A DNA stretch of 44,410 nucleotides from Desulfobacterales bacterium (GTDB taxonomy: Bacteria; Desulfobacterota; Desulfobacteria; Desulfobacterales; JAHEIW01), in assembly GCA_030066985.1 (NCBI GenBank), contig JASJAN010000028.1, positions 1-44,410 of the forward strand, written 5' to 3'. Below the pieces are notes generated by a model that was not told the DNA's origin, did not search any database, and was given only the letters and a program-made list of their open reading frames with translations. The position numbers and the translations under genes are program-made. The stretch's first letter is position 1; each line of letters opens with the position of its first letter. Shown one piece after another: positions 9,337-42,469 of the stretch.

Positions 9337-9557
9337 AGGTGTCAGGTTTCGAGCCTTCTGTGCGCCATAGCGGCTTCGTACTCGCAGACGGGTATCGGTC
9401 GCCTCGTTCAAAGGTTCAGCGTTCATAGGTTCAGAGGTTAAATAACTGCATAAAAAGGCAACTGCGATCGAAGGACAGAGAATATCTGCCCTATTGTGAC
9501 GAGGTCGGTCGAGTCGGGGACGAAACCTTTGAACCCCTGAACCCAGAACCTCTGAAC
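9337..9557 (+). repeat. Heptad fold-back: GGTTCA arm, loop, TGAACC arm
   Basis: After the pump gene the spacer begins with AGGTGTCAGGTTTC (9337-9350), also present near 2403-2416 as its complement. The arm at 9406-9439, made of GTTCA/GGTTCAG heptads, is complementary to the arm at 9524-9557, made of AACCT/TGAACCC heptads. I count about 27 of 34 positions paired, with an 84-nt loop. The rest of the 9328-9621 spacer has no gene. The structure may also end the efflux transcript, but no T-run follows it. Confidence 0.75.
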
Positions 9558-9621
9558 ATTAGTAACTGATAGCTGAAACCACCCAGTTTCTGAAAAATGC
9601 TGTTCTAAGGGCCTAAAGCCT

Positions 9622-19325: not shown

Positions 19326-19344
19326 ATTCCACTCCTTTCTATCT

Positions 19345-19487
19345 GAACGGGTCCAAAATAACATCTTTTGTCCCAGGTCTGTGTTATAATCCGATTCGAA
19401 ATACTCGCGTACTATCGTGTACGCTCCGTTTTCGAATCGAATTACGCCTAAACCTGAAACAAAATCTGAATATTTTGCTACCCGTTC
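19345..19487 (-). repeat. Fold-back element with conserved 28-nt core, copy 1
   Basis: The core spans 19402-19429. It contains GCGTAC and GTACGC, which form a 6-bp hairpin with a 6-nt loop. Perfect 10-nt inverted arms (CGATTCGAAA at 19392-19401, TTTCGAATCG at 19430-19439) frame it. Pairing continues imperfectly outward to GAACGGGT (19345-19352) with ACCCGTTC (19480-19487). The same core, 25 of 28 identical, occurs on the opposite strand at 42097-42124, and a divergent copy (20 of 28) at 23571-23598. The arms differ between sites. It lies between acd and etfB, probably inside their transcript. No ORF or transposase is linked to it. Confidence 0.85.
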
Positions 19488-19587
19488 AACAAATTATTAG
19501 CTATATGCTGTGACAATGCTACACGAGCATTTTGAATCGAATGTTAACAAAGGCCTCGGACAAAAGCTGATGATTTTAAAGCCAGTT

Positions 19588-20751
19588 TTACCTATTTGCT
19601 TTGCGGATGCCCAACTGATCCAAGGCGATAATCCATTTGCAAATATTGGCGGAGCCTTCCACCATGGCATATGTGGGCGCATCCCGGAAAAAGCGCGCTA
19701 CCGAATATTCGGTTGAGTAACCATAGGCGCCTAAAATCCGCATGGCGTAAAGGGCACATTTGTTGGCCACCTCACCGGCTGCGTATTTGGCCTGAGCCAC
19801 ATCCAGACCGTTGTTTAAGCGGCCCTGATCCTTTGCCCAGGCTGCTTTGTAAACCAGCAAACGCGCGGCTTCAATTTCGGTGGACATCTGGGCAATCATA
19901 TCCTGGTTCATTTGATAGTCGCCGATCGGCTTGCCAAACTGCTTGCGTTCGGTAGCATACTTAATGGTTTCATCCAAACAGGCCTGCGCTACGCCCACGC
20001 CACCGGCAGCTGCCGAAAGACGGGTTTGATTTAAGGATCCGAATAGGATTTTGGCGCCATCACCGGGTTTGCCAAGGATATTTTCCTTGGGCACTTTGGT
20101 ATCGGTCAGATAGATTTCTCCGGTCGGTGAAGAGCGCGATCCCAGCTTATCCAGGGCCGTTGTGCGCACGTCGTTAAAATTCTTCAGCTCAACTACAAAA
20201 GCCGATAGCCCTTTAGAGCCGGCATCACGATCCGTGTAGGCATAATAAATCATCACATCACCCACATCGGCGTTCGAAATCCAGGTCTTGGATCCATTCA
20301 AAAGCCAGTGATCACCCTTGTCTTCGGCACGGGACTTGATAGCCATCACATCCGATCCGGCATCCGGTTCGGTCATGGCAAAGCCGCCCATGTATTCGGC
20401 GCTGACCAGCTTGGGGATATATTTTTGCTTTAGTTCCTCGCTGCCGTAAGTTTCAATGGTATAGGCGCAACCCAAGGCCTGCATATTTACCTGTACCCGC
20501 AGGGAGCTTGATGCCCGCGCAATTTCCTCTGTAATGATCATGGCGGCCAGCCAGCCCATTTCGGATCCACCATAGGCCTCAGAAATAACGGTGCCAAAAA
20601 GACCGAGTTCACCCATGGGTTTGACAGCTTCCTCGTAGGGAAAATAATGCTTTTCATCCCACTCATCGGCAAAGGGCGCAATTTTTTCGCTAGCAAAATC
20701 ACGCACCGTATTTCTCAAAATTTCAAGTTCTTCCGGCAAACTAAAATCCAT
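19588..20751 (-). CDS. Acyl-CoA dehydrogenase
   Basis: FAD enzyme that introduces the alpha-beta double bond in an acyl-CoA and passes electrons to ETF. It has 387 residues and the standard three-domain layout. Signatures: FAMTEPDAGSDVMAIK, with WISNADVGDVMIYYAYT after it; the FAD/substrate helix RKQFGKPIGDYQMNQDMIA; and ILGAYGYSTEYSVARFFRDAP. The presumed catalytic base is Glu365 in MVEGSANI, in the usual place. Substrate chain length is not clear from sequence; acyl, glutaryl or aromatic-pathway substrates are possible. GGAGGG precedes the ATG. First gene of the acd-etfB-etfA unit, under the promoter at 20786-20848. Confidence 0.92.
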   Translation of the reverse strand: MDFSLPEELEILRNTVRDFASEKIAPFADEWDEKHYFPYEEAVKPMGELGLFGTVISEAYGGSEMGWLAAMIITEEIARASSSLRVQVNMQALGCAYTIETYGSEELKQKYIPKLVSAEYMGGFAMTEPDAGSDVMAIKSRAEDKGDHWLLNGSKTWISNADVGDVMIYYAYTDRDAGSKGLSAFVVELKNFNDVRTTALDKLGSRSSPTGEIYLTDTKVPKENILGKPGDGAKILFGSLNQTRLSAAAGGVGVAQACLDETIKYATERKQFGKPIGDYQMNQDMIAQMSTEIEAARLLVYKAAWAKDQGRLNNGLDVAQAKYAAGEVANKCALYAMRILGAYGYSTEYSVARFFRDAPTYAMVEGSANICKWIIALDQLGIRKANR

Positions 20752-23465: not shown

Positions 23466-23492
23466 GGGTACTACCCTCATTGGCCAGAGATT

Positions 23493-23657
23493 AGAAGCTA
23501 TCTCAAAAATGCATCTAATCCGCCAGAGGCGGACAGGCGCTCAATGGCTGTGTTCAAAACCGATTCAAAATGCTCGAATACTGCCGTGTATGCTCCACTT
23601 TTGAATCGGTTTTCGCCTTGCCCTTGAGCGTGATCTACTATTTTTGAGATAGCTTTT
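23493..23657 (-). repeat. Fold-back element with conserved 28-nt core, copy 2
   Basis: The core lies at 23571-23598, framed by perfect 15-nt arms, AAAACCGATTCAAAA (23556-23570) and TTTTGAATCGGTTTT (23599-23613). Further out CGCTCAA pairs with TTGAGCG, and the outermost arms are AGCTATCTCAAAAAT (23496-23510) and ATTTTTGAGATAGCT (23640-23654). The central hairpin pairs ATAC with GTAT where copy 1 pairs GTAC with GTAC, so one base pair is changed on both sides. Copy 2 matches copy 1 at 20 of 28 core positions. It sits between dctP and dctQ. Confidence 0.85.
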
Positions 23658-23660
23658 AGT

Positions 23661-25920: not shown

Positions 25921-25982
25921 ACCATTGAAACTTTGAAGACTCAACCATTTAACCCGGAACCCTGAACCTCTGAACCCAGAAC
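25921..25982 (-). repeat. TGAACCC heptad array (single arm) abutting the CoA-transferase alpha stop
   Basis: About eight degenerate 7-8-nt units end in CGGAACCCTGAACCTCTGAA and reach the alpha-subunit stop codon at 25983-25985. It is the right-arm form of the GGTTCAG theme. Only weak partners are seen on the other side (GGTTT at the fold-back edge). Confidence 0.65.
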
Positions 25983-26894
25983 CTAATAGCCATAATCCAC
26001 CGGCTCTGAGTAATCATGATGCTCAATAGCCAGCTGCGACAGTCGTTTTTTTCCCAGCAATTCTGTATAATCCTGCCAGCTGTGCACGTTATCAACCCAT
26101 TGTTTACGCCATTCGAGATACGCTTCCCGCGTTTTGCTTTCGGTACGGTAGTCAAGAAATCCTTGATGATCGCGGTTATAGAATCCGGGCACTGGCGAAG
26201 GATGACCGCCCCAGGGCGCATGTACCACCGCGCTGACCCGATAACCCGGGGTAATCACCCGATTGGGATCGCGACTGATGACATCCGGTTCCACGATCTC
26301 TTCTGCGGTAATAATGATGTGACGGCTGGCCAGACAGGCGTCACGGGTAAGCCCCAGGTTGCCCCAGGCATGAGCATTGCCGTAAACATCCGCCCGCTGA
26401 AGGTGAACGATGGCCACATCCGGTTTCAGCGCTGCCACCGCGGCAAGTTTGTCACCGCTAAACGGGCAAGTCATGGTTTTCAGGCGCGTATTGGTTTTGA
26501 AAAGATCGCTACCCAGCGCCGTGCGGGTAGGCATAAAGGGGACCCCCATGGCGGCAGCCCGCAACGCCATAGCCAGGGTCAGATTCGAGTGGTCTTCCAT
26601 TTCCAGGCTGCCGCTTTCAACCGCTCTTCGAAAATTATAACTCGAGCCTGTAATCACATTGCCCACCCAGGCGGCCTGTATTTTACGGACACACCCTGCG
26701 CCAATAATTTGATCAAACAGGATATCTGATATCGGTCCGATGAGGGTCAGGTGCTGTTTATTTTGGCGGATGAGTTCGTGTCCGGCAGCAAAGGGGATGA
26801 GGGTTTCCTGGGCAAGACCCATGGCAATGGAGCTACCATCAGGTATAAACTGATCAATGGCTTCAGAAAGGGGCAGCAGTTTGGACTCAGCCAA
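25983..26894 (-). CDS. CoA-transferase subunit alpha
   Basis: Larger subunit of the CoA-transferase, about 303 residues. It carries the family features GSSIAMGLAQETLIPFAAGHELI, CVRKIQAAWVGN, and VHLQRADVYGNAHAWGN, followed by SRHIIITAEEIVE. Start choice: TTG at 26903 lies directly against GGAGG and is unlikely; TTG at 26894, 9 nt after GGAGG, is used. No better start is seen. It follows the response regulator at 26946-27440 by about 51 nt and is probably transcribed with it. The substrate is unknown; a branched or aromatic acid is possible given the neighbouring TRAP transporter. Confidence 0.88.
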   Translation of the reverse strand: MAESKLLPLSEAIDQFIPDGSSIAMGLAQETLIPFAAGHELIRQNKQHLTLIGPISDILFDQIIGAGCVRKIQAAWVGNVITGSSYNFRRAVESGSLEMEDHSNLTLAMALRAAAMGVPFMPTRTALGSDLFKTNTRLKTMTCPFSGDKLAAVAALKPDVAIVHLQRADVYGNAHAWGNLGLTRDACLASRHIIITAEEIVEPDVISRDPNRVITPGYRVSAVVHAPWGGHPSPVPGFYNRDHQGFLDYRTESKTREAYLEWRKQWVDNVHSWQDYTELLGKKRLSQLAIEHHDYSEPVDYGY

Positions 26895-26945
26895 CTCGGG
26901 CAACCTCCAGATTCAATAGGGAACCAACTAACTTGTGAAAGCGGC

Positions 26946-27440
26946 TTATTTTTCAGCTTTGATGGATTTTACGAAATCATCAAAGAATTCATTTTGTTTT
27001 TTCCAATCCGGCCCAAATCGTTTGTTGAAAAAGCCGCCGAGTTTGTCAAAAAGCTTCCCCCATACGGGTTGTCCTCCCTTGAGAACAACGTCGGCGATGA
27101 ATTCGTCCAGATTGCTCATTTTTTCTTTGGGCAGAAAGGACACTGCTCCCAGTTTGATGGATTTTTCCAGAGCTTCGGGTGTCAGAGCATAAGCCGTCAG
27201 CATAACTGTGGGAAAGCCACGCTTAACAGATGTTTTTAAGAGATCAAAGCCATTGACACCCATGATATCTAGAATGACGATGTCAAAGGTATAGCCAAGC
27301 AACAATTGATGCGCAGTGTCATAATCATTGGCTTTGCGCACCATACACATGTCTAAAACCTCTTCCACGGTATCGGTGACATCCACTTCGTCATCGACGG
27401 TCAATACTATTTTGTCTTTTAAAAGCGTTGCAGGATCCAT
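26946..27440 (-). CDS. Response regulator, receiver plus conserved C-terminal tail (paralogue 2)
   Basis: A 164-residue orphan regulator, paralogous to the one at 21031-21588. It has the acidic pair in TVDDEVD, Asp58 in LDIMGVNG, and Lys105 in FLPKEK. The tail LFDKLGGFFNKRFGPDWKKQN matches the paralogue's. No DNA-binding domain is present. GGAG lies 11 nt before the ATG. It is the first gene of the unit with the two CoA-transferase genes, under the promoter at 27505-27534. Confidence 0.9.
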   Translation of the reverse strand: MDPATLLKDKIVLTVDDEVDVTDTVEEVLDMCMVRKANDYDTAHQLLLGYTFDIVILDIMGVNGFDLLKTSVKRGFPTVMLTAYALTPEALEKSIKLGAVSFLPKEKMSNLDEFIADVVLKGGQPVWGKLFDKLGGFFNKRFGPDWKKQNEFFDDFVKSIKAEK

Positions 27441-27504
27441 AGTCTTGATGTCTCCTTTCTGCAGGTGTTGCTATAGACCAAAAGGTCGGAAGGGTTTTTT
27501 AGGG

Positions 27505-27534
27505 CTTATATCATTATAAATTTCGTCAAGTCAA
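27505..27534 (-). promoter_or_regulatory. Candidate promoter for response regulator and CoA-transferase genes
   Basis: On the minus strand TTGACT (complement of 27529-27534) and TATAAG (complement of 27505-27510) are spaced 18 nt apart in AT-rich DNA, about 65 nt before the ATG at 27440. The match is moderate. Confidence 0.5.
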
Positions 27535-27643
27535 TATATGCCTCTATTTCCCAAGATCAACCTTATTTGTTTTTTTATTATTCTCAGGTATGGTTTATTT
27601 TAACTTGCATAACCGGTCAGCCCGTATTAAAGGTCCTATTTTT

Positions 27644-27760
27644 AGGTTCAAAGGTTCAGGGTTCAAAGGTTGAAAGATTACGAAATCAAACCGAAGAGCA
27701 CAAAACCTCTGAACCTTGAACCTCTGAACCTTGAACCTTTGAACCTTTGAACCGGTGAAC
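27644..27760 (+). repeat. GGTTCA heptad fold-back ending at a start codon
   Basis: The left arm (27644-27676) has four GGTTCAAA/GGTTCAGG units. The right arm (27702-27760) has eight units of CTCTGAAC or CTTTGAAC, so it is longer than its partner. The loop is 25 nt. The right arm ends one base before the ATG at 27762, so it occupies the ribosome-binding region. The remaining part of the 27441-27643 spacer shows the divergent promoter for the minus strand. Confidence 0.8.
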
Positions 27761-32377: not shown

Positions 32378-32392
32378 GAGTCATACTCCTAA

Positions 32393-32480
32393 AGTTAGAT
32401 ATTGGGTATTGGGTATTCGGTATTGGCAATCAAATGTAGACCGCTTTAACCAATATCTAATACCCGATACCGAATACCCG
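32393..32480 (-). repeat. GGGTATT-type fold-back between infA and rpmJ
   Basis: The arm at 32393-32426 (ATTGGGTATTGGGTATTCGG theme, 7-nt units) is complementary to the arm at 32450-32480 (CCAATATCTAATACCCGATA, then CCGAATACCCG). The loop is 23 nt. The right arm ends two bases before the infA stop codon. Confidence 0.8.
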
Positions 32481-32482
32481 TC

Positions 32483-32701
32483 CTATTTTGATCGATAGGT
32501 GATTCGGCCACGCGTCAGGTCGTAGGGAGATAATTCAACCGTAACCTTATCGCCAGGTAAAATCTTGATAAAATGCATTCGCATTTTGCCCGAGATATGG
32601 GCTAGCACCTGATGCTTGTTCTCCAATTCAACCTTAAACATTGCATTTGGCAATGTCTCCAGGACAACACCTTCAACGACAATAGGTTCTTCTTTGGCCA
32701 C
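32483..32701 (-). CDS. infA: Translation initiation factor IF-1
   Basis: IF-1, 72 residues, one OB-fold: [41 protein letters not shown], then [15 protein letters not shown]. The start is GTG at 32701 ([12 protein letters not shown]), 6 nt after AGGAG; a TTG two codons earlier touches that site and is rejected. It sits directly downstream of secY; adk and map, often between the two, are missing. Confidence 0.96.
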
Positions 32702-32748
32702 AGACAACTCCTATTTGCGGGTCTCGACTAATAAACCCTGATCGGCTA

Positions 32749-34065
32749 TTAACGGCCTTTTACTCGCACGCCGCCACCCCGCTTTAAAAATCCCTCATAA
32801 TGACGACTCAACATATGCGATTCAATCTGGGCGACGGTATCAATCGCTACGCCCACCACAATCAGAAGGGCCGTACCCCCAAAATAAAATGGAACATCAA
32901 AGCGGGTGATTAAGATAGAAGGCAGCACGCAGACCGCTGAAACGTAGAAAGCACCGCCAAGTGTGATGCGCGTTAACACCTTGTCAATATAGTCAGCAGT
33001 GCGTTTTCCAGGGCGGATTCCGGGTATGTAGCCGCCCTGTTTTTTCATATTTTCAGCAACATCAACCGGGTTGAAAGTCACCGCTGTATAAAAATAACAG
33101 AAAAAGAAAATAAAGCCGACGAAGAGCAATTCATAAAAAACATTCCCCGGCCGCATGGTTTCTCCAATTGTTCTGATCCAGGGAATATTAATGAAATTGG
33201 CAATCGTTGCCGGAAACATAATGATCGATGAAGCAAAAATTGGCGGAATCACACCAGACGTATTAATTTTCAATGGCAGATGGGTACTCTGCCCTCCATA
33301 CATTTTTCGCCCCACCACCCGTTTGGCATATTGAACTGGGATGCGCCGTTGCCCTTGCTCAACAAAGATGATAAATCCGATCACGGCCACCATAAAAATG
33401 ACCAGAATCAGAACAACAAATATTCCCATTTCTCCGGTGGTCAGCAAGCGAAATGTATTTCCACCAGCAGTCGGCAGCCGGGCTACAATACCGGCAAAAA
33501 TAATCAGCGAAATGCCATTGCCGATACCGCGTTCGGTAATTTGCTCACCCAGCCACATGATAAAGGCAGTGCCGGCAGTTAGGGTAATCACGGTCATTAA
33601 TCTAAATGCCCAACCCGGAAATAAGACCACCGGGGCCCCACCCGGTGAGCTCATACTTTCCAGCCCAACGGCGATGCCGAAACCTTGAATAATGCTTAAA
33701 ATAACCGTTCCATAGCGGGTATATTGCGTAATTTTTTTGCGCCCCTGTTCGCCTTCTTTTTTTAGCTGTTCCAAATGCGGTACGACAACCGTTAATAGCT
33801 GCAATATGATTGAAGCGCTGATATAGGGCATAATGCCAAGCGCAAAAACCGACAGCCGTTCTAAGGCGCCCCCGGAAAACATATTAAAAATACCAAATAT
33901 GGTGCCTTCTGCCCTGGCAAAAAAGGATTCTAGCGCGGAAGAGTCGATTCCCGGAACAGGAACATGGACACCGATCCGGTAAACGATAAGCAATCCAAAC
34001 GTAAACAGAATGCGCTTTTTTAGCTCGGGTATTTTAAATATATTTTGAAACCCGCTACCAATCAT
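32749..34065 (-). CDS. secY: Protein translocase subunit SecY
   Basis: Core of the Sec translocon, 438 residues with ten helices. Features: [20 protein letters not shown] in TM1, the plug region [35 protein letters not shown], and the C-terminal [19 protein letters not shown]. The start ATG overlaps the rplO stop by 4 nt (ATGA), so they are translationally coupled. Gene order spc: rpmD-rplO-secY. Confidence 0.98.
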
Positions 34066-34505
34066 TGAATAACCTCTACCGTACCGCCAGCAGCTTCGAT
34101 TTTTTCGCGGGCAGCCTTGCTGACATGATGTATTTTGACATTGAGGGCCACTTTAATTTCCCCCTGTCCCAACAACTTAATCCCGTCTTTTGGGCCCTTT
34201 ACAAGTCCGGCTTTCACAAGCGCGGCTTCATCGACCAAACTACCGCTCTCAAATCGCAGTAAATCTCTGACATTGATGACAGCAATCTGCTTTTTAAAAA
34301 TATTGGTAAATCCGCGTTTGGGAAGACGCCGCTGAATCGGCATTTGCCCACCTTCATAACCGGGTCTGACCCCGCCGCCGGAGCGACTGTTGTAACCTTT
34401 ACTGCCTCGGCCAGCAGTCTTGCCCCGGCCGGTTCCGACACCGCGTCCCAGACGACGGTTGGGTCTACGCGATTTTGAAGACGGCGATAGTTCATGAAGC
34501 TTCAT
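34062..34505 (-). CDS. rplO: Ribosomal protein L15
   Basis: Large-subunit protein of 147 residues. It starts [34 protein letters not shown], with a Gly/Arg-rich loop ([27 protein letters not shown]), and ends [12 protein letters not shown]. The stop overlaps the secY start by 4 nt. rpmD ends 4 nt upstream. Confidence 0.98.
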
Positions 34506-34509
34506 CGAC

Positions 34510-34689
34510 CTACTCCTCAGTGCTCACTAAATGCGAAACTTTGTTGATCATACCCCTAATTTCAGGCGTATCTTTAAGTTCGACCGTTTTATTGATGCGG
34601 GTTAATCCCATACCCCGCAGGACTTTACGTTGCTTTGGTGGCCTGCCGATCATGCTTCGAACCAGCTTTACTTTTATCGTTGCAGCCAT
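34510..34689 (-). CDS. rpmD: Ribosomal protein L30
   Basis: L30, 59 residues: [20 protein letters not shown], then [20 protein letters not shown]. The ATG at 34689 has AAGGA 8 nt upstream; 18 further open codons upstream are not used because L30 starts here in relatives. It lies between rpsE and rplO. Confidence 0.96.
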
Positions 34690-34749
34690 TTTTATGATCC
34701 TTATGAATAATACTGTTCCCGTGTTGCAAAATGTTTTGCCCAATCAGCA

Positions 34750-35244
34750 CTAAAGATCTTCTACTGAAATACCTCTTCTGGCAGCCACCATTTCACGACT
34801 TTCAAGCCGCTCAAGACCATTCACTGTCGCTTTCACCAGATTGTGAGGGTTATGAGAACCGAGACACTTTGTTAATATATTTTGGACGCCAACGGCTTCT
34901 AAAACCGCTCTAACGGCACCTCCCGCAATAACGCCAGTGCCCTCTGCAGCCGGTTTGAGCAGTACCTTGCCTGCTCCAAAACGGCCAATAATTTCATAGG
35001 GGATCGTACCTTCATTTAAAGGCACCGATATCATATTCTTTTTTGCCTTTTCGACCCCTTTGCGGATAGCTTCGGGCACTTCTCCGGCTTTGCCAAGACC
35101 AAATCCAACCGAGCCTTGACCATCGCCGACAACAACGATTGCGCTGAAACTAAATCGACGACCCCCTTTGACCACTTTGGCCACCCGATTGATATGGACT
35201 ACTTTGTCGATAAATTGCGTTTCATCTATTTCTGATTTTAACAA
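34750..35244 (-). CDS. rpsE: Ribosomal protein S5
   Basis: S5, 164 residues. It has the double-stranded RNA-binding part ([53 protein letters not shown]) and [20 protein letters not shown]. It begins [10 protein letters not shown] with GGAGGC upstream. rplR lies 146 nt further upstream, across a GCAAAG fold-back. Confidence 0.98.
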
Positions 35245-35264
35245 AAGCCTGCCTCCTTGTATTC

Positions 35265-35346
35265 CGCACGCAAAGCCGCAAAGCCCGCAAAGGAAAGATC
35301 TTCTTTATTTAATCTAAGTGCTTTGCGTCTTGGCGTCTTTGCGTGA
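35265..35346 (-). repeat. GCAAAG-type fold-back between rplR and rpsE
   Basis: The arm at 35265-35293 (CGCACGCAAAGCCGCAAAGC, then CCGCAAAGG) is complementary to the arm at 35318-35346 (GTGCTTTGCGTCTTGGCGTC, then TTTGCGTGA). The unit is about 8-9 nt; the loop is 24 nt. Related single-arm copies lie at 2131-2160 and 16784-16809. Confidence 0.8.
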
Positions 35347-35390
35347 GAACTATTCGGTTGCGTCTATACTCATTTCGAATTATCAGATTC

Positions 35391-35759
35391 TCAAAATTTT
35401 AAACCGGCCTTACGCGCACCGTCCGAAACGGCTTTTATGCGGCCGTGATACAAAAAACCATTACGGTCAAACACGACTTGTTTGACACCTTTTTCCATAG
35501 CGCGTTTGCCGATTATCTCCCCCACGGTATTGGCATTGCTCAATTTATTCTTAGATTCAGGTTTTTCCCGTACGGCCTTTTCCGTGCTTGAAGCCGAAGC
35601 AAGGGTTTTCCCCGCAGAATCGTCGATCACCTGCGCATAAATGTGTTTGGCACTTCTAAACACACACAGCCGGGGTCGATCGGCAGAGCCAACCAATTTT
35701 TTGCGTATTCTTTTTTTTCGTTTCAGCCGCGCTTGTGTTTTTGGATTAAGTGTTCCCAT
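35391..35759 (-). CDS. rplR: Ribosomal protein L18
   Basis: 5S-rRNA-binding protein of 122 residues. Signatures: [37 protein letters not shown] near the start, and [30 protein letters not shown] at the end. The stop is immediately beside a short spacer with rpsE and the fold-back. Confidence 0.97.
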
Positions 35760-35827
35760 TTTCTGATGCCTGTTTTTAGGCGGGCTGAAAGCTGGTTGCT
35801 TTATACCCGCTTTTTATGGATAAGCTT

Positions 35828-36373
35828 TTACTGAGCCGCAGCGCCCGCTTTGCCTGCTTTGCGCCGTATGCGTTCCTCGGCGTACTTTATGCCTTTTCCT
35901 TTATAGGGCTCCGGGGGCCTTATTTTGCGAATCGCAGCAGCCGCCAGACCCAATTTTTCTTTATCGATACTGCTTAATTTAATGATGGTATTGCGATCAA
36001 TTGAAGCGGCTACGCCTTCCGGCAAATCAAACTGCACCGGATTTGAATAGCCCACATTAAGGATAATACTATTGCCCTTGGTTTCAGCGCGGTATCCGAT
36101 GCCATTTATAACCAAGGTGCGCTCAAATCCCTTATTGACGCCGGCGATCATGTTGGCCACCAGGCTTCTGGTCATTCCCTGAAGTGCACGGCTGGTTCTT
36201 TTATCCTCAAAAGGCACGACGCTTAAGACACCGTCTTCAATTTTCAGGTCCACGGCAGGATGAATCGATCGCGATAGTTTTCCTTTTTCGCCTTGGACCG
36301 TAAGGACCCTGTTTTCAAATGTTAGTTTGGTTTTGTCCGGAATGGGTACCGGTTTTTTCCCGACTCGTGACAT
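35828..36373 (-). CDS. rplF: Ribosomal protein L6
   Basis: L6, 181 residues, made of two related halves: MSRVGKKPVPIPDKTKLTFE and the C-terminal RNA-binding IRPPEPYKGKGIKYAEERIRRKAGKAG. Sits between rpsH and rplR. The 114-nt gap before it (36374-36487) contains a short TAAACC-ATAA-GGTTTA hairpin and nothing else I can identify. Confidence 0.98.
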   Translation of the reverse strand: MSRVGKKPVPIPDKTKLTFENRVLTVQGEKGKLSRSIHPAVDLKIEDGVLSVVPFEDKRTSRALQGMTRSLVANMIAGVNKGFERTLVINGIGYRAETKGNSIILNVGYSNPVQFDLPEGVAASIDRNTIIKLSSIDKEKLGLAAAAIRKIRPPEPYKGKGIKYAEERIRRKAGKAGAAAQ

Positions 36374-36487
36374 ATGTTACTCCCACATTCGTAAACCATA
36401 AGGTTTAAGTCTCAAGCATCTTGCTAAAGATTGGATCTTTTTACGATCTGCCGCGTAGGTTTTAGAGTTTACTGACGAACCAAGTGG

Positions 36488-36886
36488 CTACCACACGTTG
36501 CAAAGGATCTCGCCACCAACGTTTTCCTGTCGAGCTTTTTTATCTGTCATGATGCCTTTGGATGTGGATAAAATCGAAATCCCCATACCATTGTAGACCG
36601 GTTTAATATCATTGCTTTTCACATAAACCCGACAACTGGGTTTACTAATACGCTTTAGCCCGTAAACCACATTAGACTGCCCTGGACCGAATTTGAGGTA
36701 AATGCGCAAAATACCCTGCTTACCGTCTTTAAGGAACTTGTAATTTTTGATGAAACCTTCGTCCTTTAAAATCCTGGCAATGTCTGTTTTAAGCTTGGAT
36801 CCCGGCACATCAACGCTGTTAAATCTGGCTTTGACACCATTGCGAATTCGCGTCAACATATCGGCTATCGGATCGCTTACCGCCAT
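36488..36886 (-). CDS. rpsH: Ribosomal protein S8
   Basis: S8, 132 residues: [20 protein letters not shown] at the start, and the C-terminal [33 protein letters not shown]. In E. coli S8 controls the spc operon by binding its mRNA near rplE; no such site was checked here. AGGAGAA precedes the ATG. Confidence 0.98.
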
Positions 36887-36914
36887 TATCTTCTCCTGTG
36901 TTTGATACGTGAGC

Positions 36915-37039
36915 CTTGAAACTTGAAACTTGATACTAGAAACCAGTCATTAAAGCCAATATTCAAACCTGCCTGTCAAACTGGGACAGGAATTGGGGAT
37001 TATCAAATTTCCAATTTCGAGTTTCCAGTTTCCAAAATT
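36915..37039 (-). repeat. GAAACTT-type fold-back between rpsN and rpsH
   Basis: The arm at 36915-36943 (TTGAAACTTGAAACTTGATA theme, period 7-8) pairs with the arm at 37004-37039 (AATTTCCAATTTCGAGTTTC, then CAGTTTCC). The 60-nt loop holds a second hairpin, CCTGTC-AAACTGG-GACAGG. The outer end of the right arm overlaps the rpsN stop codon. Confidence 0.75.
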
Positions 37040-37223
37040 ACCAACTCGATTTTACAACTCCGGGGAGTTTGCCTTCGGATGCAAAAACCCGGAAGCAAAT
37101 ACGACAAAGTCCAAATTTTCTGAGATATCCTCTGGGTCTTCCACAGATCGGACAGCGATTATACTGTCGAACCTGAAACTTGGGTTTTCGCATTGCTTTA
37201 TTTCGAAGCGCTTTTTTGGCCAA
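37038..37223 (-). CDS. rpsN: Ribosomal protein S14 type Z, zinc-binding
   Basis: The short, zinc form of S14, 61 residues. Cys24, Cys27, Cys40 and Cys43 (CPICG, CRICF) form the zinc site. The end ([13 protein letters not shown]) is standard. rplE ends 10 nt upstream. Confidence 0.98.
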
Positions 37224-37233
37224 ATCTGCCTCC

Positions 37234-37773
37234 CTAATTTTTAAACGGCATTCCCATCAAGCCCAACAACTGCCTGCCTTCATCGTCTGTCTGGGCTGTA
37301 GTTACAATGCTGATATTGAGACCTTTGATCTTATCTATTTTATCGTAATCAATCTCCGGGAAAATGATGTGCTCTTTAATCCCCAGAGAGTAATTGCCAC
37401 GACCGTCAAATGCTTTGGCGGAAACACCTCTAAAGTCTCTAACACGCGCCAGCGCGATATTGACCAGTTTATAGTAAAAATCGTACATCCGTAGTTGTCG
37501 TAGGGTAACCATGCAACCGATCGGCATCCCCTCTCTTAGTTTAAATGCCGCAATGGACTTTTTAGCGCGGGTGATCACCGGCTTTTGCCCTGCGATTGCC
37601 TTGAGTTCTTCGGCCGCAGCATCCAGCACTTTTATATTCTGGATGGCCTCGCCCAGTCCCATGTTAAGAACGATTTTGTCCAGTTTGGGAACCTGCATTT
37701 TGTTTTTGTAACCGAAGTTGTCCATGAGCTTGGGCACGACTTCGTTTTCATATATCGTTTTTAATTGTGACAT
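37234..37773 (-). CDS. rplE: Ribosomal protein L5
   Basis: L5, 179 residues, a 5S-rRNA binder. Signatures: [40 protein letters not shown] and [31 protein letters not shown]-type purine stretch upstream of the ATG. Lies between rplX and rpsN with short gaps. Confidence 0.98.
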
Positions 37774-37794
37774 CGCCTTCCTCCGTGCGCCGGA

Positions 37795-38124
37795 TTAAGT
37801 ATCGATTGCTTCTCCGCACTTAACACAAAGCCGAATTTTTTTTCCATCTTCCAGATGCTGCATCTTAACCCGTGTTGCTTTAATGCACTTGTTGCACATA
37901 ATCATCACATTGGAGATGCGAACCGGCGCTTCACCTTCTACGATACCGCCCTGTCTGTTTTTTGCGCTGGCTCTGGTATGGCGCTTAATCAGATTAATTT
38001 TTTCAATGAGCAACTGGCTCTTTTCGCGATCAACCTTGAGCACCTTACCGATTTTACCCTTGTCCTTACCAGCAATAACCTTGACTTTATCGTCTTTTTT
38101 TATCCGTATTTTATTCTGAAGCAT
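37795..38124 (-). CDS. rplX: Ribosomal protein L24 with C-terminal zinc motif
   Basis: L24, 109 residues. The KOW part ([21 protein letters not shown]) is followed by a C-terminal zinc-ribbon-like pair, Cys77/Cys80 and Cys100/Cys103. GGGAATCC precedes the ATG. A fold-back lies just upstream, between it and rplN. Confidence 0.97.
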
Positions 38125-38139
38125 AGCTGGATTCCCGTT

Positions 38140-38239
38140 TTGGTTATTGGTTATTAGTTATTCGTTATTGGGAGCGACACATTTTGACGGTATTGCCCAT
38201 CTCATGATACCAATAACCTATAACAAATTACGAATAACA
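38140..38239 (-). repeat. GTTATT-type fold-back between rplN and rplX
   Basis: The arm at 38140-38173 (GGTTATTGGTTATTAGTTAT, then TCGTTATTGG) pairs with the arm at 38206-38239 (CCAATAACCTATAACAAATT, then ACGAATAAC). The loop is 32 nt. The same theme is used at 40679-40777 and 41097-41198. Confidence 0.8.
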
Positions 38240-38243
38240 TCTA

Positions 38244-38612
38244 TTAGAGCACCTCCGGTGCTAACGAAATAATTTTCATGAATCGTTTGGCGCGCAATTC
38301 TCTGGCGACAGGCCCAAAAATTCGGGTACCGATTGGCTCTCGCGAAGCGTTGACCAAAACAGCAGAATTATCATCAAATCGGATATAAGAGCCATCTGGG
38401 CGACGGATCTCTTTTTTGGTTCTAACCACAACCGCTTTTAAGACATCACCTTTTTTGACCTTGGCATTCGGCAAGGCTTCCTTTACCGCCACAACAATGA
38501 TATCCCCAACTCTGGCATATCGCCTACGGGAGCCGCCTAACACTTTAATGCAATACAACACTTTGGCTCCGGAATTATCGGCTACATTAAGCCGTGTTTC
38601 TGACTGAATCAT
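38244..38612 (-). CDS. rplN: Ribosomal protein L14
   Basis: L14, 122 residues: [27 protein letters not shown] at the start, and [31 protein letters not shown] later. All standard. Gap of 18 nt from rpsQ. Confidence 0.98.
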
Positions 38613-38630
38613 GATATCGTTTCCTTGAAA

Positions 38631-38888
38631 TTAAACCGCTTTTTTAACGATTTTTACGACCCGCCACCTTTTTGAGCGGCTCAATGGGCGGCATTCTGTC
38701 AGCATGACCGTATCCCCAATTTGACAGCTGTTGCCTTGGTCGTGAGCAGCAAATTTGGCCCGTCGTCGGATATATTTGTGGTAGAATTTATGCTTAACCA
38801 GTCGCTCAACCAAGACCACCACTGTTTTGTCCATCTTGTTGCTGACGACTGTACCCACCAATTGTCTTTTCATTCCTTGTTTTTTCAT
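38631..38888 (-). CDS. rpsQ: Ribosomal protein S17
   Basis: S17, about 85 residues: [24 protein letters not shown], then [33 protein letters not shown]. The ATG at 38888 is used, 7 nt after the rpmC stop; an in-frame TTG at 38906 overlaps the rpmC end and another ATG lies five codons inside. The start is therefore uncertain by a few residues. Confidence 0.95.
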
Positions 38889-38895
38889 GACCTTA

Positions 38896-39105
38896 TTATT
38901 CTTCAACCGTCTTGTTTTTTAATTCAGTTTCGCGAATGATGGTTTTTACCTGAGCAATATCTCTGCGTGTCCGCTTCATTTTATTGGGGTTTTCAAGCTG
39001 CCCGATTTCGTGTTGAAAACGAAGATTAAACAATTCTTCTTTTAGATCGTTAACCTTACGGTTTAATTCTTCAAGGTTCATTTCTTTTATCTCACTGACT
39101 TTCAT
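38896..39105 (-). CDS. rpmC: Ribosomal protein L29
   Basis: L29, 69 residues, two helices: [20 protein letters not shown], then [20 protein letters not shown]. The start overlaps the rplP stop by one base (TGATG), a sign of coupled translation. Confidence 0.97.
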
Positions 39106-39518
39106 CAGGCCTCACTCCTCTCAACAAACCGCGTTTTTACTGAAAGTTTATGGCCTGCCAGGCGAAATGCCTCTTTGGCGGTTTCTTTGTCCACGCCTTG
39201 CATTTCATAAAGAATTCTGCCGGGTCGAATCACCGCTACCCAACCTTCCGGAGCACCTTTGCCTTTTCCCATGCGGACTTCAGCCGGCTTTTTGGTAAAC
39301 GGTTTATCAGGAAAAATTCTTATCCAGATTCGACCACCTCTTTTAATATGACGCGTCATCGCAATTCTTGCTGCCTCAATTTGTTTCGCGCTGATGGTGC
39401 CACAACCGGTGGCCTGCAAGCCGTATTCGCCAAAATTCAGACTAGATCCCCGCCGGGCAATGCCTCGCATGCGGCCTTTTTGTTGTTTGCGAAATTTTAC
39501 TTTTTTAGGACTTAGCAT
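39105..39518 (-). CDS. rplP: Ribosomal protein L16
   Basis: L16, 137 residues: [70 protein letters not shown]. All conserved elements present. It overlaps rpmC by one base; a fold-back separates it from rpsC. Confidence 0.98.
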
Positions 39519-39527
39519 TTTTTTACT

Positions 39528-39598
39528 CCGGTTACGCGTTCCGGGTTACGAGTTTTTCTGTTTTTTACGCGCAACGCGCAACACGCAATGCGCAACTG
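39528..39598 (-). repeat. GCGCAAC-type fold-back between rpsC and rplP
   Basis: The arm at 39528-39551 (GGTTACGCGTTCCGGGTTAC theme) pairs with the arm at 39567-39598 (ACGCGCAACGCGCAACACGC, then AATGCGCAAC). About 14 of 20 central positions are complementary; the loop is 15 nt. The rest of the 39519-39645 spacer has no gene. Confidence 0.75.
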
Positions 39599-39645
39599 TT
39601 ATTGTTTTGTATTAAAAACCCAATTATCGGAAAATGCCTTGAATT

Positions 39646-40299
39646 TTATGCCTCAGCAATTTCCTCTTCATCTTTCTTTAGTATTTCACCCTTGAAAATA
39701 AACACTTTTACACCAATAACGCCATATGTGGTTCGGGCTTCGATGAAGCCATAATCGATATCAGCCCGCAAAGTGTGCAGCGGAACCCGGCCTTCACGAT
39801 ACCATTCGGTTCGGGCCATCTCCGCGCCACCCAGTCGACCCGAACAGATAATCTTCACACCCAGGGCACCAAATCGCATCGCGGAAGACACACCGCGCTT
39901 CATCGCACGCCGAAACGCCACCCGCCTCTCAATCTGCAGCGCCACATTCTCGGCAACCAATTGGGCATCGATCTCAGGTTTGCGAACTTCCTGGATATCG
40001 ATCAAAATCTCACGGTCCGTCATCTTTTCAATTTCATTTTTAAGCTGTGATATCTCAGAGCCTTTTTTACCGATGACAATACCGGGCCTGGAGGTATAAA
40101 TGCGCAGACGGACACGCTTGGACGATCGTTCAATTTCAATTCTGGAAACACCTGCATGATAAAGTTTTTCTTTGACAAACTTTCTCAAGCGATAGTCTTC
40201 CAAAATATATTCGGCGTAGTTTTTCCCACCAAACCAACGGGATTCCCACGTTTTGACAATTCCCAATCTCAATCCAACTGGATTAACTTTCTGACCCAA
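39646..40299 (-). CDS. rpsC: Ribosomal protein S3
   Basis: S3, 217 residues. It begins at TTG at 40299 ([22 protein letters not shown] follows), because AAAGGAGG lies 7 nt upstream; 38 codons of open frame before it overlap rplV and are not used. The KH domain has [13 protein letters not shown]. The C-terminal half ([30 protein letters not shown]) is standard. A TTG start is rare for such a highly expressed gene. Confidence 0.97.
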
Positions 40300-40322
40300 G
40301 CTTTTACCTCCTTTGTTAAGCG

Positions 40323-40664
40323 CTAAGCTGAAGATTCTTCGTCTAAAATGACGGTAATGTGACTGGTGCGTTTTAATATTCGGGTGCCTCTGCCCCGAGC
40401 CCTGGCCCGCCACCGTTTCAAAGTGGGGCCCTGGTCGGCTGTAACATTGCGAACCACCAGCAAATCAATGTCGACATCCGGATTCTGATCGGCATTGGCC
40501 ACCGCTGAACGGATGACTTTCTCCAATATCCCGGCGGCTTTCTGGGGCATAAATTTAAGTGTATTTAAAGCCGTTTCGACCGGCTTGCCTTTTACAGCCC
40601 CGACCAATTTATGGACTTTACGGGGCGATATTCGCATATATTTTGCAGAGGCTTTGACTTCCAT
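40323..40664 (-). CDS. rplV: Ribosomal protein L22
   Basis: L22, 113 residues: [22 protein letters not shown], then the tunnel loop and [24 protein letters not shown]. 140 nt gap to rpsS with a fold-back. Confidence 0.98.
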
Positions 40665-40678
40665 CAGTTTTGTCCTTG

Positions 40679-40804
40679 CTATCTGTTATTCGTTAATGGC
40701 CTTGCCCACATATCAAATAAAGGAACCGGCTCGATTTCGCTTTAACTAGTAACCAATAACGAACACCGAATAACGCCAGTTGAGCTTTAGCTCAATTGGA
40801 CTGG
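40679..40804 (-). repeat. GTTATT-type fold-back plus hairpin between rpsS and rplV
   Basis: The arm at 40679-40701 (GTTATTCGTTAATGG) pairs in part with the arm at 40746-40777 (AACCAATAACGAACACCGAA, then TAACG). Beside it a separate strong hairpin, CCAGTTGAGCT (40776-40786) with AGCTCAATTGG (40789-40799), has an 11-bp stem and a 2-nt loop and lies just past the rpsS stop. There is no T-run after the hairpin, so it is more like an mRNA-stabilising or processing structure than a terminator. Confidence 0.7.
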
Positions 40805-41083
40805 TTATTTTAAGCGTGATTTTTTATCACCCGCATGTCCGTAAAAAGTCCGGGTCGGCGAAAATTCCCCCAGTTTGTGACCGACCATGTTCTCGGAAAC
40901 AAACACCGGTATAAATTTTCGGCCGTTATGGACAGCCAGTGTCACACCGACCATCTCCGGAACTATTGTAGAACGCCGCGACCAGGTTTTAACAACCTGA
41001 CTACTGCGTGATGCCTGAGCCTCATTGACTCTCTTCAACAGGCGCTCATCAATATAAGGACCTTTTTTCAGCGAACGTGGCAT
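40805..41083 (-). CDS. rpsS: Ribosomal protein S19
   Basis: S19, 92 residues: [71 protein letters not shown]. Standard throughout. Fold-backs lie on both sides. Confidence 0.98.
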
Positions 41084-41096
41084 ATATACTCCCGTG

Positions 41097-41198
41097 TTGG
41101 TTATTGGTTATTCGTTATTGGATATTAGTTATTGAATCAGCGCTTCGCCGCGCTCATCGCATCGCCAAGTAACGAATAACAGATAACCAATAACTAAT
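41097..41198 (-). repeat. GTTATT-type fold-back between rplB and rpsS
   Basis: The arm at 41097-41135 (GGTTATTGGTTATTCGTTAT, then TGGATATTAGTTATTG) pairs with the arm at 41168-41198 (AGTAACGAATAACAGATAAC, then CAATAACTAAT). The loop is 32 nt and GC-rich (GCGCTTCGCCGCGC). The right arm ends one base before the rplB stop. Same theme as 38140-38239. Confidence 0.8.
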
Positions 41199-42021: not shown

Positions 42022-42042
42022 TTTATTCTCCTAACAAGAGAA

Positions 42043-42180
42043 GTGGTTTCAAAATCTCAGATCATGTTCGAGAGCAAGGCGTCCCTTGAATTGAAAGCGG
42101 AGCGTACACGAAAGTACGTGAGTATTTCAATTCGAGGGATAACACAGCTATCGGACATTAGATGGGGTTTTGAAAACACT
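42043..42180 (-). repeat. Fold-back element with conserved 28-nt core, copy 3
   Basis: The core lies at 42097-42124 in the opposite orientation to copies 1 and 2; its complement matches copy 1 at 25 of 28 positions. It holds the CGTAC-6 nt-GTACG hairpin. Arms AATTGAAA (42089-42096) and TTTCAATT (42125-42132) frame it, extended by CCCTTG and CGAGGG. Outermost pairing is between 42043-42070 and 42155-42180 (TTTCAAAA with TTTTGAAA). It occupies nearly the whole rplW-rplB gap in the S10 operon, the last place where an insertion would be expected to be tolerated without effect on transcription. Confidence 0.85.
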
Positions 42181-42181
42181 T

Positions 42182-42469
42182 CTAAGCTCCTTCAAAGAAA
42201 TCAATTCGCTCACCGGGCATCAAAGTAACAATGGCTTTTTTCCAATCCCGGCGCTTGCCAACGTTTCGACCTCTGCGTTTGACCTTACCCTTCACCTGCA
42301 TTGTCTGAACACTGGCGACTTTAACTTTAAATGCTGTTTCGATCGCCCGTTTGATTTCAATGCGATTGGCGCGTCGATCGACCTCAAATGTCAGCTGATT
42401 AGCAATTTCTTTCTGAATATTGGTTTTCTCAGTGATCAAAGGTCGTTTGATGATCTCGTATTGCATCAT
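42182..42469 (-). CDS. rplW: Ribosomal protein L23
   Basis: L23, 95 residues: [48 protein letters not shown], then [25 protein letters not shown]. It overlaps the end of rplD by 4 nt, so translation is coupled. Confidence 0.98.

Follow-up and report, generated by a model that had tools for sequence, protein, structure and literature searches.

A palindromic DNA hairpin repeat of Desulfobacterales, related to E. coli repeats and often starting at stop codons

A palindromic repeat element of ∼145–149 nt is abundant in the genome of a Desulfobacterales bacterium. Of 179 copies tested across three genomes, 116 begin at the in-frame stop codon with which the preceding gene ends and are in sense orientation to it. 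It is this start that is new here. The element is probably a non-autonomous mobile DNA hairpin of the RSA/ERIC type that has a preference for stop codons and is retained at many of its sites. Insertion is seen in filled and empty alleles, the arms of the hairpin lie within the insert, direct repeats are present at the two cleanest sites, and most of the tested copies begin at a stop codon. As it groups with known enterobacterial palindromic repeats, the element is not categorically new. What deserves attention is the stop-codon anchoring, the fixed orientation, the variable arms that travel with the element and the conservation in place. Why palindromic repeats such as REPs sit near stop codons is an old puzzle. 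The nucleotide-exact anchoring, the fixed orientation, the presence of filled and empty hemE alleles within one species and the split between orthologous and replaced copies make the choice between targeting and selection testable in E. coli.

The element and its copies in the window

The window, which is the whole stretch of 44,410 nt analysed, carries three copies. The original prediction had placed three 28-nt cores in it, and these are found at 19402–19429 (copy 1) and 23571–23598 (copy 2) on the plus strand and at 42097–42124 (copy 3) on the minus strand. The core identities given there also hold, with 25 of 28 positions shared by copies 1 and 3 and 20 of 28 by copies 1 and 2; copies 2 and 3 likewise share 20 of 28. 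Flanking inverted repeats are present as described, though they are imperfect, and copies 1 and 3 each fold as a single long hairpin (fold z −10.5 and −7.2; 0 of 200 shuffles folded equally well). The element extends beyond the core (∼19344–19490, 23495–23655 and 42041–42181), and a copy number of three was an undercount. The covariance-model search that had been proposed gives 134 matches in the genome, and matches are also found in relatives. Rfam families at their gathering scores have no match in the window.

Copy 1 (19344–19490, plus strand, model match of 137.5 bits) has an ETF gene and an acyl-CoA dehydrogenase gene as neighbours, assigned by Pfam, and there is no stop codon at this copy. 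A half-element search detected an adjoining half copy at 19525–19588 on the minus strand, which we take to be the remnant of an older, oppositely oriented copy. In genomes G001 and G005, the copy 1 gap is occupied by an element in the opposite orientation.

Copy 2 (23495–23655, plus strand, model match of 109.7 bits over 23510–23659) belongs to the GAATAC subfamily. It is located between genes for DctQ and DctP (neighbours by Pfam), is not anchored at a stop codon, and has the direct repeat TTAG at its left (23491–23494) and right (23656–23659) sides, both on the plus strand. The left arm contains a nested short TCCGCC..GGCGGA hairpin at 23519–23533, and the same is found in L009, L020 and L024.

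Copy 3 (42041–42181, minus strand, model match of 155.5 bits) lies between rplW (L23) and rplB (L2), as assigned by Pfam, immediately 3′ of the rplW stop codon, a TAG at 42182–42184 on the minus strand that marks its start. It is the only window copy with stop-codon anchoring. The window also displays arrays of short AT- or A/C-rich intergenic units (e.g. AACCTCTGAACC and GGTTATTGGTTATT) at 9406–9560, 25950–27753 and 32388–41197; elsewhere in the genus, some element copies lie within the second kind of array.

An alignment of 37 copies, in which there are two core subfamilies, reveals the anatomy of the element. Outermost are variable paired arms of ∼18 bp that start with TAA, TAG or a similar triplet. 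Inward of the arms are a CATC/GATCT internal loop, a short stem and a GGCTGYGTT/CGCCTTG internal loop, and innermost are a variable paired stem, a TACTC/GCTCC internal loop and an apical stem of 4–6 bp with its loop. The apex, CTCRCGTAC..GTACGCTCC, is conserved, as are the internal-loop motifs GGCTGYGTT and CGCCTTG. The alignment bears out a constant apex within variable paired arms, and the idea that structure matters agrees with changes on both sides in 31 of 40 consensus pairs. The arms do differ by copy, but they are not unrelated DNA, since the 37 copies align end to end and leave a residual consensus. Terminal sequences also vary by copy; the ends are TAA or TAG together with AAN, and many right ends are TAC, TAT or something else. 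A unit of ∼50 nt (..AACACCTT..GTGAAATCCCGC..GCGGG) is nested at the CGCCTT internal loop of several copies, for example in regions L302:16187–16331 and L284:2478–2548. This nested unit is itself a small repeat, with the hairpin element as its place of insertion.

Insertion sites and stop codons

The proposed comparison of gaps with and without the element yielded both filled and empty alleles. The copy 2 site is empty in G001 and G002, and the TTAG found on both sides of the insert is present once in the empty G002 allele. The copy 3 site is empty in G001, G003, G004 and G005, and the empty alleles of G001, G003 and G005 also have a stop at the rplW stop position. The rplW–rplB gap of G002 has a damaged copy, with its tip replaced by another hairpin that resembles TCCGCC..GGCGGA. 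Two additional sites, L300 (no copy in G001 or G002) and L252 (no copy in G000), represent insertions at a stop codon, and this codon also ends the gene in the empty alleles. In E. coli, the end of hemE reads CGC TAA GAGCCTGGTCC...GGACCAGGCTC TAA GGAG in strain 7/2 and CGC TAA GGAG in K-12; the insertion is exactly at the stop codon, with the TAA repeated. Clean flanking direct repeats are present at two sites only, TTAG at copy 2 and TAA at hemE. The arm sequence is absent from the empty alleles seen (copies 2 and 3, L300, L252 and E. coli hemE), and the arms therefore arrived with the element. They travel with it, vary among copies and stay paired.

Anchoring was defined as a start ≤4 nt from the in-frame stop of a same-strand open frame of ≥240 nt, gene calls being simple open frames; the anchoring frames have a median length of 1051.5 nt. 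The 179 copies tested remained after 15 of 194 unique copies were left out because of a short match or a flank of <400 nt. Only 5 of the 179 display the mirror arrangement, and ∼5% are expected, given that non-coding stop-like triplets are called gene stops at a rate of 5.0% (5.6% for TAA and TAG). The stretches of G001 and G002 were mostly picked around their copies, and shared sites are thus over-represented in these counts. By subfamily, 75 of 99 copies are anchored in subfamily 1 and 41 of 80 in subfamily 2, the latter being a low count as ends are miscalled in copies with nested inserts.

The stops at anchored copies are 78 TAA, 30 TAG and 8 TGA, against 825 TAA, 356 TAG and 477 TGA for all called genes in the same stretches. 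TGA is depleted among the anchored stops, which favours a TA-containing DNA target over ribosomal read-out of any stop. In most TAG copies listed, judged by eye, the third base of the stop pairs with the right end of the element.

Copies from other phyla display a similar but weaker signal: 18 of 32 have a sense open frame of ≥300 nt that ends 57–79 nt before the middle of the core, and in 7 of 32 an antisense frame ends equally far on the opposite side. These frames were counted by eye, and as GC-rich DNA contains long frames by chance, the stop-codon signal in other phyla is suggestive only. In the literature searched, neither a report of exact stop-codon insertion by RSA nor one of the hairpin family outside enterobacteria was recognised, although such absence is not proof.

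Pairing, conservation in place and candidate explanations

Same-site copies were compared in G000, G001 and G002. There are 32 same-site pairs, two of which are in opposite orientation and were left out. In 12 hand-picked pairs of true orthologues, 47 stem pairs have changed and 5 of the 47 are compensated, i.e. both sides changed with pairing in both copies; stem changes in true orthologues are thus mostly uncompensated. In the 18 other same-site, same-orientation pairs, 110 of 214 changed stem pairs are compensated. Many of these 18 are not mutual best matches, which we read as a different copy having replaced the original one or having reached that stop codon separately, and the three that are mutual best matches may simply be older. 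The suggestion in the original prediction that selection keeps the arms paired therefore fits the lineage that yields new copies better than it fits copies in place. The stems of 194 copies contain 196 A-C and 165 G-U cells (one constant U-G pair left out) in 40-pair counts made on alignments fitted to the model structure, which is a bias toward G-U over A-C. That A-C is at least as common as G-U is unlike selection on sense RNA, and we infer that it is mostly the moving lineage that keeps its pairing, probably as DNA. A structured RNA read from one strand was a candidate and was rejected, as the stems display no G-U preference.

Sixteen same-site pairs that are ≥85% alike have a mean identity of 92.8%, with two of the 16 based on matches of just 59 and 71 nt. 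The upstream genes, in the 9 of 16 pairs with a readable frame, are 64.4% identical at third codon positions and 93.2% identical at positions 1 and 2, and the 60 nt downstream of the conserved pairs are 56.8% identical with gaps counted. Conservation at about the level of codon positions 1 and 2, unlike that of neutral DNA, suggests that many copies are probably retained in place by selection.

In the preferred explanation, a putative trans-acting enzyme would recognise the DNA hairpin by its shape and apex and not by its terminal sequence. Well-paired copies would be the ones moved, and pairing would thereby be kept in the moving lineage. Insertion would prefer TA-containing stop codons in a single orientation. 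Many inserted copies would then be kept by purifying selection, perhaps as 3′-end hairpins of the upstream gene. Several findings weigh against this explanation: window copies 1 and 2 and 63 of the 179 tested copies are away from stop codons, direct repeats are clean at just the two sites, the stop signal is weak in other phyla, and neither a mobilising enzyme nor a gene-bearing form was found in the searches made. A more far-reaching version is put forward tentatively. Here the stop codon itself would be the target of the family, which occurs in Desulfobacterota and in E. coli and whose core is also seen in records with the titles Nitrospirota, Nitrospinota and other Gammaproteobacteria. Insertion would be one-way, placing the element in sense orientation directly after a TAA or TAG and repeating the stop triplet; the arms would drift, as only DNA pairing matters, and the insert would later become a conserved gene-end element. 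If true, this would represent a built-in way of inserting without harm to the gene.

The conservation in place, a further point against the preferred explanation, could also mean a role as RNA. Ribosome stalling has been reported for REPs located ≤15 nt from stop codons (excerpt of PMC12306157), which makes a role of the element in the upstream mRNA a fair rival. Insertion would be random, and selection would retain those hairpins that lie in sense orientation behind stops, where they might act in termination, stalling or protection of the 3′ end. Sense orientation, exact position and conservation in place are all consistent with such a role. The ratio of A-C to G-U in the stems, the depletion of TGA and the rarity of compensation in true orthologues are not, and a functional mRNA element is considered possible but somewhat unlikely.

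A Y1 (RAYT-type) transposase acting on a REP-like element would account for a target that is one-way and lies in single-stranded DNA. REPs share the hairpin shape and the closeness to gene 3′ ends, and their termini may supply a stop codon, with GTAG termini often giving TAG (excerpt of PMC3733652). Y1_Tnp is also widespread, being present in 36 of 40 relatives. These comprise 24 of 26 genomes with element matches and 12 of 14 without, however, and the presence of Y1_Tnp thus does not follow that of the element. The element has 69 model matches in G013, a draft genome (96% complete) from a different family within the order, and Y1_Tnp has none. No element copy adjoins the three Y1 loci of the window's own genome within ∼1.5 kb on each side, and movement by a Y1 enzyme appears unlikely. 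When the analysed stretches were searched for half elements, 16 solo halves were detected and no long form with a gene was apparent, and neither this search nor the Y1_Tnp comparison identified a mobilising enzyme.

Mutation might also make the arms symmetrical, if template switching occurs in the imperfect palindromes and pairing is not under selection. This would account for the many paired differences among copies and the few G-U intermediates; however, correction in place should yield more than 5 compensated changes in 47 in true orthologues, which have had time to diverge, and the process is quite doubtful as the source of pairing. An inverted duplication of local DNA together with insertion of the core, an early proposal that would suit arms that differ among copies and a stop triplet that often pairs with the right end, is refuted at the sites seen by empty alleles without the arm sequence and is scarcely tenable.

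Distribution, E. coli copies and named repeats

A BLAST search with copy 1 gives 41 matches in its own genome (5.07 Mb, 81 contigs). The model matches in this genome, obtained with 150 of 1788 first-look candidates scored, comprise 128 distinct ones after six opposite-strand duplicates were dropped by reading. Model matches are present in 26 of 40 genomes of a set of relatives that includes the own genome. The exact core pattern is found 33 times in the own genome and the reversed control 0 times, and the cores are therefore not a product of chance; among 118 genomes drawn across the phylum, the exact core is found in the own genome alone. A core scan of the species collection detected at least 80 loci, and the titles among the core matches listed include Desulfobacterales, other Deltaproteobacteria, Lysobacterales, Rhodanobacter, Woeseiaceae, Nitrospirota and Nitrospinota. 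Isolated, unexpected titles (Fenollaria, Ammonifex) possibly represent contamination, as many of the records are metagenome bins. In the phage collection, a single record has a match, and this is a Salmonella assembly.

A gammaproteobacterial copy led to copies in E. coli. The Desulfobacterota model R1 has 8 matches in nine E. coli loci, two locus pairs of which are the same site; six are at E 2e-4 or better and five below 2e-5, and the best (52.3 bits, E 2e-11) is full length. We take these E. coli matches, at which the records have no repeat annotated, to be the enterobacterial RSA repeat, which to our knowledge has been known only from enterobacteria. On this reading its range extends to the Desulfobacterota, where the own genome has >100 copies, including one within a ribosomal protein operon, and RSA (BEE95; ‘SPED’ RSA-like repeats in Salmonella) is homologous to the window element by covariance model. 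The E. coli copies are similar in length and have site-specific arms, the outer arms differing by site and yet pairing. RSA-like repeats are mentioned in Salmonella (excerpt of PMC5604773), and RSA is mentioned in a reference title within PMC3751351. The statement in the original prediction that no named element has this plan does not stand, as the plan is shared by E. coli copies of the same family, taken to be RSA, and by the layout of ERIC.

ERIC (IRU), a repeat of 127 bp, is also a long hairpin, and it displays the motifs GCTGCGT, TCAC.TAC..GTA.GCTCC and CGCCTT on the same strand in the order found in the element, although this three-part pattern was written after ERIC had been seen. The ERIC locus of E. 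coli (L368) has no covariance-model match, and alignment of the ERIC apex alone does not exceed shuffles. The shared order of the three motifs hints at one wider family.

Integron attC sites are hairpins of variable sequence and conserved shape located in sense orientation after a gene, and in these respects they resemble the element. In attC sites the end boxes are constant and the tip is variable, and the element is the opposite, its tip being kept while its ends vary. By eye, its right ends (GTTTTA, GTTTA, etc.) are not the GTTRRRY box of attC. REP/BIME/REPIN sequences are, as is the element, dispersed intergenic palindromes close to gene 3′ ends. REPs are described in excerpted literature as 20–40 bp with a GTAG or CGTC tag, and the element, with ∼145–149 nt and neither tag, falls outside the REPs.

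With the hemE copy as query, matches are found in 5375 of 5426 E. coli genomes, at a median of 5 places per genome as against the >100 copies of the window genome. The best match is ≥95% identical in 293 of 5385 records, and among the matches listed all four at ≥95% overlap hemE. The copy at qseE begins not at the stop but 5 nt beyond it, where a second TAA stands in frame; the best match to the qseE copy is ≥90% identical in 5375 of 5385 records, and 30 of the 30 matches listed for this query overlap qseE. Three of six E. coli copies have a frame of >1000 nt that ends 61–79 nt before the middle of the core. One search pattern has no match in an E. coli record that does carry copies, as it is too strict. 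A comparison of the nuoL–nuoM gap in K-12 and B gave no clean empty site. In this gap (L354 and L363), the element is found in BLR(DE3), and K-12 has unrelated, strongly folding DNA.
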